From Methanococcus maripaludis (GTDB lineage Archaea > AGJL01 > Methanococci > Methanococcales > Methanococcaceae): a stretch of DNA of 64,000 nt. Below, piece after piece: positions 21,450-52,426 of this stretch (the stretch's first letter is position 1; each line of letters begins with the position of its first letter). A program made the position numbers and the translations under genes. The notes beneath the pieces were generated by a model that saw nothing but the letters and a program-made list of their open reading frames with translations, searched no databases and was not told the DNA's origin. The stretch covers positions 252,340-316,339 of the forward strand of contig NZ_JACDUL010000001.1 in assembly GCF_013760955.1 (NCBI RefSeq), read 5' to 3'.

Positions 21450-21526
21450 TGGTGGACCTAGCCGGATTCGAACCGGCGACCCTCGCCTTGTAAGGGCGAT
21501 GTCATAGCCAACTAGACCATAGGTCC
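21450..21526 (-). tRNA. tRNA-Val (anticodon UAC)
   Basis: Read on the minus strand from 21526. The 7-bp acceptor stem GGACCTA/TAGGTCC is perfect. The anticodon arm TCGCC-CTTACAA-GGCGA shows anticodon UAC, and the T arm GCCGG-TTCGAAT-CCGGC is canonical. The discriminator is A and CCA is encoded (21450-21452). No intron. Confidence 0.97.
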
Positions 21527-28660: not shown

Positions 28661-28775
28661 AATTCATCCCCTCAACAAAATATCAAAAATTTTTTATGTT
28701 TTTAAAATATATTTAGTTTATGATTATTTTATAAATTTTAGGAATTATTATTCATTTTAAAATTGTGTGAAAAAC

Positions 28776-30119
28776 ATGAAAAGAATAGTTATTGCAGGCA
28801 CTTCTTCAATGGTTGGAAAAACGACCATATCGACCGGAATAATGAAAGCACTCTCTAAAAAAAATAACGTGCAACCATATAAAATCGGGCCTGACTACAT
28901 AGACCCCACATATCATACAGAAGCTACTGAAAATAAATCGAGGAATTTAGATTCATTTTTTATGGATAAATTGCAGATTAGATCACTTTTTAAAAAACAT
29001 TCTAAAAATAAAGATATAAGCGTTATTGAAGGTGTGAGGGGATTATACGAAGGAATTTCACCATATAACGATATTGGCAGTACTGCATCAGTTGCAAAAA
29101 CATTGAATGCTCCGGTAATTTTATTAATGGATGCAAGAAGCCTTACGAGAAGCGCTGCTGCAATAATTAAAGGTTTTAAATCTTTTGATACTGAATTAAA
29201 CATTAAAGGTGTTATTTTCAATAAAATTAGGGGTGAAGGACACTTAAATAAATTAAAAGAAGCTGTAAAATATTATGACAATGAAATCGAAATAATTGGT
29301 GCAATTCCGCGGGATGAAGGGTTATCTGTTTCCCAAAGGCATCTTGGACTTGTTCCCACCCCGGAAAATAAGCAAGGATTACTTGAAAGAATAGATTTAT
29401 GGGGAAATACTGTTGAAGAATGTCTCGATATTGAAAAAATAGTGGAATTAAGTGATAAAAGTTTCGATTTTTGCGTTGATGAAAAAAATAAGGATGAAAC
29501 TCTCTGGAAAGTTGAAAAAAATAATTCAAAAATTGCTGTTGCGTTTGATGAATCATTTAATTTTTATTACTGGGATAATTTCGATGCAATGGAAGAAAAC
29601 GGTGCAAAACTAAAATTTTTTAGCCCGTTAAATGACTCTGAAGTTCCAGATTGTGACACCATATATCTTGGTGGAGGTTATCCAGAAATATTTTCAGAAA
29701 AACTTTCAGAAAATAAATCTATGATTGATTCAATTAGGAATTTTGATGGAAAAATTTACGGCGAATGTGGGGGGCTGATGTACCTTACAAACTCCATTGA
29801 TGGTAAAGAAATGTTGAAATTGATAGATGCAAATGCGGTAATGACCCCAAACGTTCAGGGCTTAAGTTATGTCAAAGGAACTTTTGAAAAAGATTGTATC
29901 ATCGGTGAAAAATCTAAAGAATTTAAAGCACATGAATTCCACTATTCAAAACTAATAAATATTAATGAAAACGACTTTTCATATAGGATAAATAGGGGAA
30001 AAGGAATAATAAACTCCATGGATGGAATAACTTCAAAAGGTGGCGACATCGTTGGAGGTTATGCTCACCAGCACTGCATTGGAAATCCCTACTTTGCAGC
30101 GAGCCTTTCTAAAATCTAA
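28776..30119 (+). CDS. cfbB: Cobyrinate / Ni-sirohydrochlorin a,c-diamide synthase
   Basis: A 447-residue ATP- and glutamine-dependent amidase (CbiA/CfbB family). The N-terminus is a P-loop-like synthetase ([12 protein letters not shown]) with [14 protein letters not shown], the substrate-binding motif. The C-terminal class I-like amidotransferase has nucleophile Cys about 330 (GECGGLMYL) and His in GGYAHQHC. In methanogens the enzyme amidates Ni-sirohydrochlorin for coenzyme F430 and may also amidate cobyrinate for B12. The start at 28776 follows GTGTGAAAAAC. Followed closely by dacZ. Confidence 0.9.
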
Positions 30120-32488: not shown

Positions 32489-32620
32489 TTTATATAGTAT
32501 CAATACCCCTATTAAAGATAGGTTAAAGTTACTAAAATAAAATAGACTAAACCGAAATCAATATATAACATCTTTTGTTAAAGATAACTGTAAATTAATA
32601 TAACTTATCTTTAATAGGTG
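32489..32620 (+). promoter_or_regulatory. cbiM promoter region with three repeats of TTAAAGATA
   Basis: TATA boxes occur at 32489-32496 (TTTATATA) and 32562-32568 (TATATAA). CCTATTAAAGATA stands at 32508-32520, TTAAAGATAA at 32578-32587, and the inverted copy TTATCTTTAATAGG at 32605-32618, which runs into the AGGTGAT ribosome site. Copies 1 and 3 are inverted over 13 bp and copies 2 and 3 over 10 bp. This suits a metal-responsive operator or two alternative RNA hairpins. Confidence 0.6.
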
Positions 32621-32625
32621 ATAAA

Positions 32626-33303
32626 GTGCACATTATGGAAGGTTTTTTGCCTCCGATGTGGGCTGCAATCTGGTTTTTACTTTCCGGTATTGTCGTAATA
32701 TATGGAATAATCCAGTTAAATAAATTAATAAAAGACAAACCTGAAGTTAAACCTACATTGGCGCTCGCAGGAGCATTCATGTTCATATTAAGTTCGTTAA
32801 AACTTCCTTCAGTTACTGGAAGTTGTTCACACCCAACTGGTGGTGGACTTGGTGCAGTTATGTTCGGTCCAGCAATTACAGCAGTACTTGCGACAATTGT
32901 ATTATTGTTCCAGGCAATCTTACTTGCACACGGTGGATTGACCACATTAGGAGCTAATATATTCTCAATGGGAATTATGGGCCCAGCAATTGGTTTTTTA
33001 GTGTTTAAATTGTTAAAAGGAAAATTAAATATTACATGGGTTGTTGTACTCGCTGCAATATTTGCAGACTGGGGAACATACGTTACAACATCAATCCAAC
33101 TTGCTTTAGCATACCCATTACCAGATTTTGGAACTGCTCTTGCAAACTTTGGAACCGTATTTGCAGTAACACAAATTCCACTTGCAATTATGGAAGGTTT
33201 GTTAACAGGACTTATCTGGGACTACATTATGAAATTGAGACCAGATCTCCTTGCAAAACTTGGTCTTATTGAGCCTGCAAAAGCTGAAGGAGGTGCTGAA
33301 TAA
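32626..33303 (+). CDS. cbiM: Cobalt/nickel ECF transporter, substrate component CbiM
   Basis: A 225-residue S-component with about seven membrane helices. The mature N-terminus HIMEGFLPPMWAA supplies the metal ligands (His just after the start Met) and is the diagnostic CbiM/NikM signature. Translation starts at GTG after AGGTGATAAA. The C-terminal tail is charged. Co2+ versus Ni2+ preference cannot be told from sequence; the CbiN partner points to cobalt. Confidence 0.93.
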   Translation: MHIMEGFLPPMWAAIWFLLSGIVVIYGIIQLNKLIKDKPEVKPTLALAGAFMFILSSLKLPSVTGSCSHPTGGGLGAVMFGPAITAVLATIVLLFQAILLAHGGLTTLGANIFSMGIMGPAIGFLVFKLLKGKLNITWVVVLAAIFADWGTYVTTSIQLALAYPLPDFGTALANFGTVFAVTQIPLAIMEGLLTGLIWDYIMKLRPDLLAKLGLIEPAKAEGGAE

Positions 33304-33596
33304 TGGAATTTAAACACGTTTTAATGATTCTCGGAGTTATAATTCTTACATTAGCACCTTTGATCATGTACTCAGGTCTTGGTGAAGATGAAGGATACTT
33401 CGGTGGTGCAGATGGCGCTGCTGGAGATTTGATCATGGAAATCAGTCCAAATTACGAACCTTGGTTTGAACCATTCTGGGAACCTCCAAGTGGGGAAATT
33501 GAAAGTCTCTTATTTGCGCTTCAAGCTGCAATAGGTGCTTTAATCATCGGATACTTCTTTGGATACAACAAAGCTAAATATGATGATCAAAACTAA
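33303..33596 (+). CDS. cbiN: Cobalt transporter accessory protein CbiN
   Basis: A 97-residue protein with two membrane helices flanking an acidic loop (GLGEDEGYFGGADGAAGDL, residues about 27-45). CbiN assists CbiM in metal loading. Its ATG overlaps the cbiM stop (TAATG), so the pair is translationally coupled. Confidence 0.92.
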   Translation: MEFKHVLMILGVIILTLAPLIMYSGLGEDEGYFGGADGAAGDLIMEISPNYEPWFEPFWEPPSGEIESLLFALQAAIGALIIGYFFGYNKAKYDDQN

Positions 33597-33609: not shown

Positions 33610-34383
33610 ATGACGAACAGTTTCTTGATTGATAGCATTGCAAATTGTAACAATTTGGGGTCAGTTAATCCTACCTTGAAGGTTATTTTTGCAATCTCAT
33701 CACTGCTCGTCAGTGTTTTTTCTAAAACTTTCATCGTACCTCTTTTAATCACAATTATAATGGGTTTTGTAGTTATTTTTGCTGCAAAAGTACCAAAAAA
33801 TGTTTATTTAAAATTATTAGCAATACCTGTTATTTTTGGAATTATTACTTTCGTAATGATGACTTTTTTATTTGGAACCGAAATTTACATGACATTCGAT
33901 TTTTTCGGAATTACAATTAATTTACTAAAAGACGGATTTAGTCTTGGACTTTTAACATTTTTTAAGATGCTTGGTGGAGTATCTTGCACACTATTTTTAG
34001 CGCTGACGACCCCGTTCACGGAAATTTTCTGCATTTTGAAAAAGTCCAAAATACCAAAAAACATGCTAGAAATTGCGATGATGATGTACCGTTGCATATT
34101 TGTGTTGTTAGAAGAAGCTTTTACAATGGAAAATGCGCAGAAAACAAGACTCGGCTACAAAACTCTCAAAACGTCATACCACTCCCTTGGATTACTTGCG
34201 GGAAGTTTATTCATAAAAGCACTCGATAAAGGCGATGTAATCTATAACTCGCTCAATTCAAGAGGCTACGATGGAGATTTAATGTTTTTTGGAAATATGT
34301 CCTATCCGAACCCAGGCTATATTGTGCTTATAGGCATATTTGAATTACTGTTACTGTCTTTAAATTACATTAAAATATATTAA
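33610..34383 (+). CDS. cbiQ: Cobalt ECF transporter permease CbiQ
   Basis: A 257-residue T-component with five to six helices. The ARG-type coupling motifs are visible in the last third (QKTRLGYK and SLNSRGYDGDL), which contact the ATPases. GGTTAAAAT precedes the ATG. Third gene of cbiMNQO. Confidence 0.92.
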   Translation: MTNSFLIDSIANCNNLGSVNPTLKVIFAISSLLVSVFSKTFIVPLLITIIMGFVVIFAAKVPKNVYLKLLAIPVIFGIITFVMMTFLFGTEIYMTFDFFGITINLLKDGFSLGLLTFFKMLGGVSCTLFLALTTPFTEIFCILKKSKIPKNMLEIAMMMYRCIFVLLEEAFTMENAQKTRLGYKTLKTSYHSLGLLAGSLFIKALDKGDVIYNSLNSRGYDGDLMFFGNMSYPNPGYIVLIGIFELLLLSLNYIKIY

Positions 34384-34445: not shown

Positions 34446-35291
34446 ATGGCGATTTTGGAAACGAGAGATTTAAAGTATTCTTATCCAGACGGAACTGTCG
34501 CACTTAACGGAATTAATTTTAAAGCTGAAGAAGGGGAAATGATAGCAATTTTAGGTCCAAATGGGGCTGGAAAATCTACTACGTTTCTCCATTTTAACGG
34601 AATTTTAAAACCAAGTAGCGGTAGCGTAATTTTAAAAGGCGAACCTATAAAATATGACAACAAATCGCTTTTAAATGTTAGAAAAACTGTTGGAATTGTA
34701 TTTCAAAACCCTGACGACCAGCTTTTTGCCCCCACTGTTGAACAGGACGTTGCATTTGGACCGATGAATCTCGGACTTTCGAAAGAAGAAATTGAAAAAA
34801 GAGTAAAAGATTCATTAAAAGCCGTTTCAATGGAAGGTTCTGAGAGAAAACCTCCACATCATTTAAGTGGTGGCCAGAAAAAGAGAATCGCTATCGCAGG
34901 AATTTTAGCAATGAATCCAGAAATTATTGTTCTTGATGAACCAACTTCGGGACTTGATCCGATGGGGGCATCCCAGATCATGAAGTTACTATATGATTTA
35001 AATAAAAAGGGAATAACAATTGTCATATCCACTCACGACGTAGATTTAGTTCCAATATATGCAAATAAAGTTTATTTACTAAATAAAGGAAAAATTATCA
35101 AAGGAGGAACCCCTAAAGAAGTTTTCAGTGACTCCGAAACGGTTAGGGGTGCACATTTAAGGCTCCCGAGAGTTGCACATTTGATAGAACTTTTAGAAAA
35201 TGAAGACCATTTAGGGATAAAAATGGGTTACACCATAGGGGAAGCAAGAAGAAATATCAAAGAATTTATCGGGGGAATTAATCATGCATGA
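34446..35291 (+). CDS. cbiO: Cobalt ECF transporter ATPase CbiO
   Basis: A 281-residue ABC ATPase. Walker A is GPNGAGKST, the Q-loop is QNPDDQLFAPT, the signature is LSGGQKKR, Walker B is IIVLDEPTSGLDP, and the switch His is in STHDVD. AAGGTGATTTA precedes the ATG. A 62-bp gap with its own weak TATA separates it from cbiQ. The end overlaps the next gene by 8 bp. Confidence 0.94.
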   Translation: MAILETRDLKYSYPDGTVALNGINFKAEEGEMIAILGPNGAGKSTTFLHFNGILKPSSGSVILKGEPIKYDNKSLLNVRKTVGIVFQNPDDQLFAPTVEQDVAFGPMNLGLSKEEIEKRVKDSLKAVSMEGSERKPPHHLSGGQKKRIAIAGILAMNPEIIVLDEPTSGLDPMGASQIMKLLYDLNKKGITIVISTHDVDLVPIYANKVYLLNKGKIIKGGTPKEVFSDSETVRGAHLRLPRVAHLIELLENEDHLGIKMGYTIGEARRNIKEFIGGINHA

Positions 35292-52038: not shown

Positions 52039-52057
52039 CCTAAACACTTAAACCTTG

Positions 52058-52370
52058 ATGTGGCTAGGCTGGGAAGTTAGGCGTTTCCTGTAACTCGAAA
52101 TCGCCTTTGCGAGAGCCGAAAACTTGAGGGCGGTTTTAAATTCTGTCATTCATTCTCAAGTTTTGTGTAGACATTTCGTCCTTTGGGGTAAGATGGAGGA
52201 GGAACCTTTTTTGGAAGAAAAAGACAAACCTCCCTTATCTTTCGAACCCCGTCAGGCCCGGAAGGGAGCAGCGGTAGAGAGAACTTCAACGCTCAGAGGG
52301 TTGCGGAATCGAGCAGGACTTGGGGTAAAATGGGTTTCAGGGTTTATTACCCACCTCAAGGAAGCCACTT
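52058..52370 (+). ncRNA. 7S signal recognition particle RNA
   Basis: The helix 8 core GTCAGGCCCGGAAGGGAGCA (52251-52270), with its SRP54-binding internal loop and GGAA tetraloop, is diagnostic. The 5' domain TGGCTAGGCTGGG... CTGTAACTCGAAATCGCC matches archaeal Alu-domain helices 3-4. GTGGCT at 52060 pairs with AGCCAC at 52363, giving helix 1 and a length near 310 nt, typical for archaea. Ends are approximate. An oligo-T tract follows. Confidence 0.93.
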
Positions 52371-52426
52371 TTATTTTAAGAGATTTTTATAATTATTCAA
52401 TTTTTCAAGTTTTTTTAAGGTACACA

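Follow-up and report, generated by a model that had tools for sequence, protein, structure and literature searches.

Candidate palindromic operators at the promoter of the cbiMNQO cobalt-uptake operon in Methanococcus maripaludis and other Methanococcales

The window, a 64,000-nucleotide stretch of Methanococcus maripaludis DNA, carries the genes cbiM, cbiN, cbiQ and cbiO, whose products all exceed the curated cut-offs for components of a cobalt ECF transporter, and ahead of them two TATA boxes and three copies of a repeat (Table 1). The upstream neighbour of the operon encodes the large subunit of homoaconitase (HacA), and farther up lie DacZ-like and CfbB genes. CfbB, the Ni-sirohydrochlorin a,c-diamide synthase of the F430 pathway, scores above its cut-off at 28767-30119 of the window, three genes upstream of cbiM. 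In the whole window, Rfam matches only an archaeal SRP RNA gene (52057-52371, + strand) and a tRNA gene (21453-21526, - strand).

Table 1 Promoter features and genes of the cbiMNQO locus (window positions; invariant columns refer to four congeners)
Feature	Position	Strand	Evidence
TATA box of upstream promoter P1 (TATATA)	32491..32496	+	Retained by the four congeners; its start lies 21-22 nt ahead of that of copy 1
Copy 1, full site TTAAAGATAGGTTAAA, on expected P1 start	32512..32527	+	11/16 columns invariant
Main promoter P2: BRE-like CGAAAT and TATATA box (32562-32567)	32552..32569	+	13/20 columns invariant over 32550-32569
Copy 2, left unit of candidate operator, TTAAAGATAACTGTAA	32578..32593	+	14/16 columns invariant; pair recovered in other genera with held-out matrix
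Copy 3, right unit of candidate operator (reverse complement TTAAAGATAAGTTATA)	32599..32614	-	21 bp from left unit; 13/16 columns invariant; spacing fixed in four congeners
Ribosome binding site AGGTGAT of cbiM	32616..32622	+	Sequence
cbiM, GTG start	32626..33303	+	TIGR00123 CbiM, 313 bits (cut-off 184)
cbiN	33303..33596	+	TIGR01165, 129 bits (cut-off 105)
cbiQ	33610..34383	+	TIGR02454, 168 bits (cut-off 112)
cbiO	34446..35291	+	TIGR01166, 282 bits (cut-off 212)

An earlier note on this DNA had described a three-copy repeat before cbiM, and the copies, arms, spacers, TATA boxes and ribosome site that it listed all proved to lie where it had placed them. Copies 1 and 3 match exactly over 13 bp as an inverted repeat (CCTATTAAAGATA at 32508-32520 against 32606-32618), with arms that can be extended to 32508-32525 and 32601-32618 at 17 of 18 matched positions, whereas copies 2 and 3 (TTAAAGATAA at 32578-32587 and TTATCTTTAA at 32605-32614) are perfect over 10 bp across a 17-nt spacer. 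The TATATA boxes stand 15 and 10 nt ahead of the copy 1 and copy 2 9-mers, and the copy 3 arm terminates within AGGTGAT. A degenerate partner 20 bp downstream of copy 1 is suggestive only. We would expect the upstream promoter P1 to start near 32517 and the main promoter P2 near 32590, ~25 nt past its TATA box and downstream of copy 2, a distance that is the established TATA-to-start spacing of archaeal promoters.

Part of this arrangement is not rare at such base composition. When the 192-nt intergenic region (82% A+T) was shuffled 2,000 times with dinucleotides preserved, 14 shuffles contained an exact inverted repeat of at least 13 nt, 251 a 9-mer in three copies, and 4 both together. Genome-wide, exact matches to CCTATTAAAGATA are confined to these two places; at two mismatches, however, it has 125 matches versus 143 for a reversed control. 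By itself the 13-mer is thus no regulon marker, and we dropped it. The pattern TTAAAGATA-N10..25-TATCTTTAA occurs in this genome only here, and a loose dyad allowing three mismatches showed no excess over control in G000.

Alignment of the cbiM upstream regions, from upstream gene to start codon, of the four closest Methanococcus-type genomes (G000, G001, G004 and G003) shows that both TATA boxes and all three copies are kept. Invariant columns concentrate in the two 16-mers of copies 2 and 3, in copy 1 and in the BRE/TATA region of P2 (Table 1), as compared with 1 of 8 in the gap between the second TATA box and copy 2, 0 of 5 at the centre of the pair and 15 of 53 upstream of the first TATA box. 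All four share the 19-nt distance between the copy 2 and copy 3 9-mers. In the other three congeners, copy 1 has the sequence TTCAAGATA, so its perfect match to copy 3 is peculiar to this genome. In G000, G003 and G004, cbiM is the only place where a TATATA box is followed within 8-20 nt by TTMAAGATAA; G001 has one other such place besides cbiM.

Judged by comparison, the repeated unit is a ~16-bp imperfect palindrome, TTAAAGwtAACTTTAA, of which each copy is the outer part. Averaged over all sites, the halves read TTAAAG-ATAA-CTTTAA and are palindromic about their own centre, with a self-match of 0.58 as against 0.38 by chance and 0.47 in the highest of 2,000 shuffles. The two units lie 20 or 21 bp apart, start to start or centre to centre, which is two helical turns. 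The three copies that had been described do exist, but as palindromic sites of ~16 bp paired at 20-21 bp rather than as a 9-mer triplet.

When cbiM promoters are aligned across the order, this block recurs in other genera, again lying between the TATA box and the ribosome site. A matrix built from the four congeners only, applied to the 140 nt upstream of every other cbiM with 300 shuffles, recovers the pair in both Methanococcales families; eight further loci reach the p floor of 0.003 and others come to ~0.01. G021 and G017 are among the positives. Within the same 140 nt, no significant pair was recovered at L007-L009, L011, L014, L017, L020, L022, L023, L026 and L030, and many Methanothermococcus and voltae-like loci were negative. 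The offset from the TATA box is 17-18 in Methanococcaceae and 10-11 in Methanocaldococcaceae-type genomes, and hence the left unit always lies just downstream of TATA. TTAAAG/CTTTAA precedes cbiM1 in 25 of 32 cases (shuffle mean 9.3, maximum 16), an enrichment not seen before a second transporter described below (8 of 25, shuffle mean 6.2). Some Methanocaldococcaceae-type genomes (L015, L016 and L025) also have, at about -105, a second dyad, TTAAAGTTTATTTTAT...ATAAAATACCGTTAA, overlapping the cbiM BRE.

Model R1, built from the cbiM sites of the order and run over 36 genomes, points to further candidate targets. In the voltae-like genome G005, three of the four best genome-wide matches precede cbiM, BtuC-like and BtuD-like genes. 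The best match in both G005 and voltae-like G002 lies ahead of a BtuD-like ATPase, a region also matched in G006; the G005 gene encodes an ABC ATPase of 407 aa, for which the top NCBIfam match is ‘corrinoid ABC transporter ATPase’. Among the next matches in G005 are the cbiM site, which is there a single copy, and a pair upstream of a FecCD permease with BtuC as its best match. In the voltae-like BtuC-like and BtuD-like promoters, the units are 20 bp apart and lie just downstream of a TATA-like box. The BtuC and BtuD matches fall below curated cut-offs, so the transporter substrate is not proved, and beyond the voltae-like group the pair is missing upstream of most BtuC orthologues. Several weaker R1 matches inside coding sequence were treated as background. 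Model R2, trained on the four congeners alone, is too strict for genome-wide use; at E < 0.3 it did not list cbiM outside those four. An order-wide role at cobQ (cobyric acid synthase) is unsupported, as cobQ promoters carry at most a single site in Methanococcus. Upstream of cobQ at L228-L232, a single palindromic site reads TTAAAGAAAAGTTTAA in G003 and CTAAAGAAAAATTTAC in G000 and G001.

These sites, with their pairing, spacing, position and conservation and with similar pairs before BtuC- and BtuD-like genes of voltae-like species, are best read as candidate operators for a transcription factor controlling cbiMNQO, an interpretation to which we assign a probability of roughly 0.7. We propose that each ~16-bp unit is probably bound by a protein dimer. 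Copies 2 and 3 would be a pair of these units, separated by two turns along the same face of the helix and spanning the expected P2 start, and copy 1 would be a further site at the expected start of P1. The bound protein could block recruitment or escape of RNA polymerase, turning the uptake genes off when cobalt or corrinoid is plentiful. We infer both the existence of this protein and its kind; repression, rather than activation, is suggested by the position of the sites over the start site and by the need to stop uptake when metal is plentiful.

A metal-responsive repressor acting at two promoters was one of two explanations offered by the earlier note, and it gains from the retention of both TATA boxes and all copies in the four congeners and from the presence, in many species of the order, of a pair of sites after the cbiM TATA box. 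Of the ‘Ni/Co’ signal then suggested, the cobalt or corrinoid side is favoured over the nickel side, since the operon is CbiMNQO, the other targets resemble B12 transporters and another motif stands at the second transporter. The most likely regulator would be a repressor that responds to cobalt or corrinoid. More tentatively, and at somewhat less than even odds, this may be an undescribed archaeal factor, distinct from NikR and DtxR, that senses cobalt or corrinoid and governs, through tandem TTAAAGwtAACTTTAA sites, a Methanococcales-wide regulon comprising cbiMNQO and, in some species, BtuCD-type transporters. Our searches of the literature on NikR or cbiM in Methanococcus, the CBL-box, CblR and methanogen cobalt repressors found no description of this element and no paper describing a cobalt regulator of methanogens. 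In all, a new regulatory site with a small regulon of familiar kind is probable.

The second transporter, also of CbiM type and beginning MHIPDGF, is encoded elsewhere in the genome and is present as well in genomes that lack cbiM1. Its promoters carry GTATTA/TAATAC in 21 of 25 cases (shuffle maximum 12), often as GTAATAC-TGTATTAC (L091-L097, L100 and L178-L194), whereas the motif is not enriched before cbiM1 (10 of 32, shuffle mean 9.4). This difference bears on the alternative that survives best, although we consider it unlikely: that the cbiM operator belongs to NikR. This ribbon-helix-helix tetramer responds to nickel and, on such a reading, would repress cobalt uptake on a nickel or cobalt signal. 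PF08753 detects NikR in G000 and throughout the 36 genomes of the order, NikR scores above the NF003381 cut-off, and two sites two turns apart on one face would suit a tetramer. Known NikR sites, moreover, are inverted repeats of 27-28 bp, of the forms GTATGAT-N13/14-ATCATAC and GTGTTAC-N13/14-GTAACAC (PMC545781). Like these, the cbiM element stands at the promoter of a Ni/Co ECF transporter and forms a long inverted repeat whose half-sites are about two turns apart; it differs from them in half-site sequence and in having halves that are themselves 16-bp palindromes. GTATTA/TAATAC, by contrast, is close to the NikR half-site GTGTTAC (PMC545781), and a GTATTAC-like motif sits at the nickel-type second transporter instead, making NikR the less likely owner of the cbiM sites, and BtuC- and BtuD-like genes are not usual NikR targets. 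We regard GTATTA/TAATAC as a candidate NikR site of Methanococcales, and the simplest reading would assign the second transporter to NikR and cbiMNQO to another factor, one that responds to cobalt or corrinoid.

The other explanation in the earlier note was an RNA switch: within the mRNA leader, copy 3 would base-pair with copy 1 or copy 2 and so mask the ribosome site. In its favour, copy 3 overlaps that site, folding of the leader is better than that of shuffles in G000 (z -1.9 and -2.7) and in G003 (z -3.9), and the G003 arms carry matching CCAG/CTGG extensions, one compensated extension in that genome only. The copy 2/3 hairpin that folds well in G000, G004 and G003 is lost in G001, however, where no stable hairpin forms (z +0.7). 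The register of the dyad is sharp (71% of cells paired versus at most 57% in slid registers), but its arms do not covary, with 71.0% of cells paired as against 71.5% in shuffles and a covariation score reached in 169 of 500 shuffles. Moreover, the start expected from the second TATA box would leave the main mRNA with copy 3 alone, the 13-bp match between copies 1 and 3 is absent from the congeners, and the pair is retained by Methanocaldococcaceae, the described members of which are hyperthermophiles, where an A-U stem would melt. Cobalamin and NiCo riboswitches would likewise control cobalt or B12 genes from the leader; unlike them, the present leader is too short and unstructured and matches nothing in Rfam by gathering-threshold or E-value searches. 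The lack of arm covariation, the hairpin lost in one congener and an expected start that excludes copies 1 and 2 all make a protein operator the better fit, and RNA masking quite improbable.

We think it similarly improbable that the DtxR-type metal regulator encoded in these genomes owns the sites. Operators of the DtxR type are A+T-rich palindromes that cover the start sites of metal uptake genes, the type of site seen here except that two palindromes stand in tandem, and nearly every genome has one strong DtxR-type protein. The distribution of that protein appears to depart from that of the sites: it is present in genomes without cbiM1, and no strong copy was found in pair-bearing G017 and G034, whose assemblies are 89% and 85% complete. 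The archaeal CBL-box/CblR regulon, reportedly predicted in a 2003 description, offers another parallel, as a predicted DNA operator for cobalamin-related genes lacking a known protein. Here, however, the targets are transporters rather than B12 biosynthesis genes; our literature search did not find a published CBL-box consensus. CblR is mentioned as a B12 regulator with a predicted regulon in P. furiosus (PMC10746257). Least likely of all, and very improbable, is that the sites merely resemble a core-promoter initiator or arose by chance in A+T-rich DNA. A three-copy 9-mer is not rare at this composition, and TTAAAGATAA follows TATA at the corresponding position in voltae-like mtd promoters, probably as an initiator resemblance; against such a reading stand the paired 20-21-bp spacing, the held-out recovery in other genera and the recurrence at other cobalt-related genes.

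More broadly, methanogens need much cobalt for corrinoid-dependent methyl transfer. If the preferred reading, a repressor bound at tandem palindromes, is right, the motif supplies a defined 39-bp bait and a short list of targets with which the regulator could be fished out directly, and the genus includes genetically tractable species. The two motifs further suggest that a single cell uses different promoter sequences to keep its cobalt-type ECF transporter apart from its nickel-type one.

Several minor features attend these transporter genes. In voltae-like genomes, the second cbiM (L095-L097) is preceded by a widely spaced inverted pair: CCAAAATGATA lies ~100-150 nt upstream of the gene, and its reverse complement, TATCATTTTGG, ~20 nt ahead of the start codon. 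The second cbiM of G001 (G001:C1:671922-672607, L092) is matched in two pieces, with open frames of 156 and 102 aa, and is either a broken gene or a sequencing error. In Methanocaldococcaceae-type genomes (L015, L016, L019, L025 and L027), a near-perfect palindrome, GTAATACTTAGTATTAC, lies ~230-300 nt upstream of cbiM, between it and the divergent gene, and shares its core with the second-transporter motif. Finally, at the second cbiM of G008 (L100), TTAAGTTATCTTAA directly follows GTAATACTGTATTA, possibly placing both motifs on one promoter.
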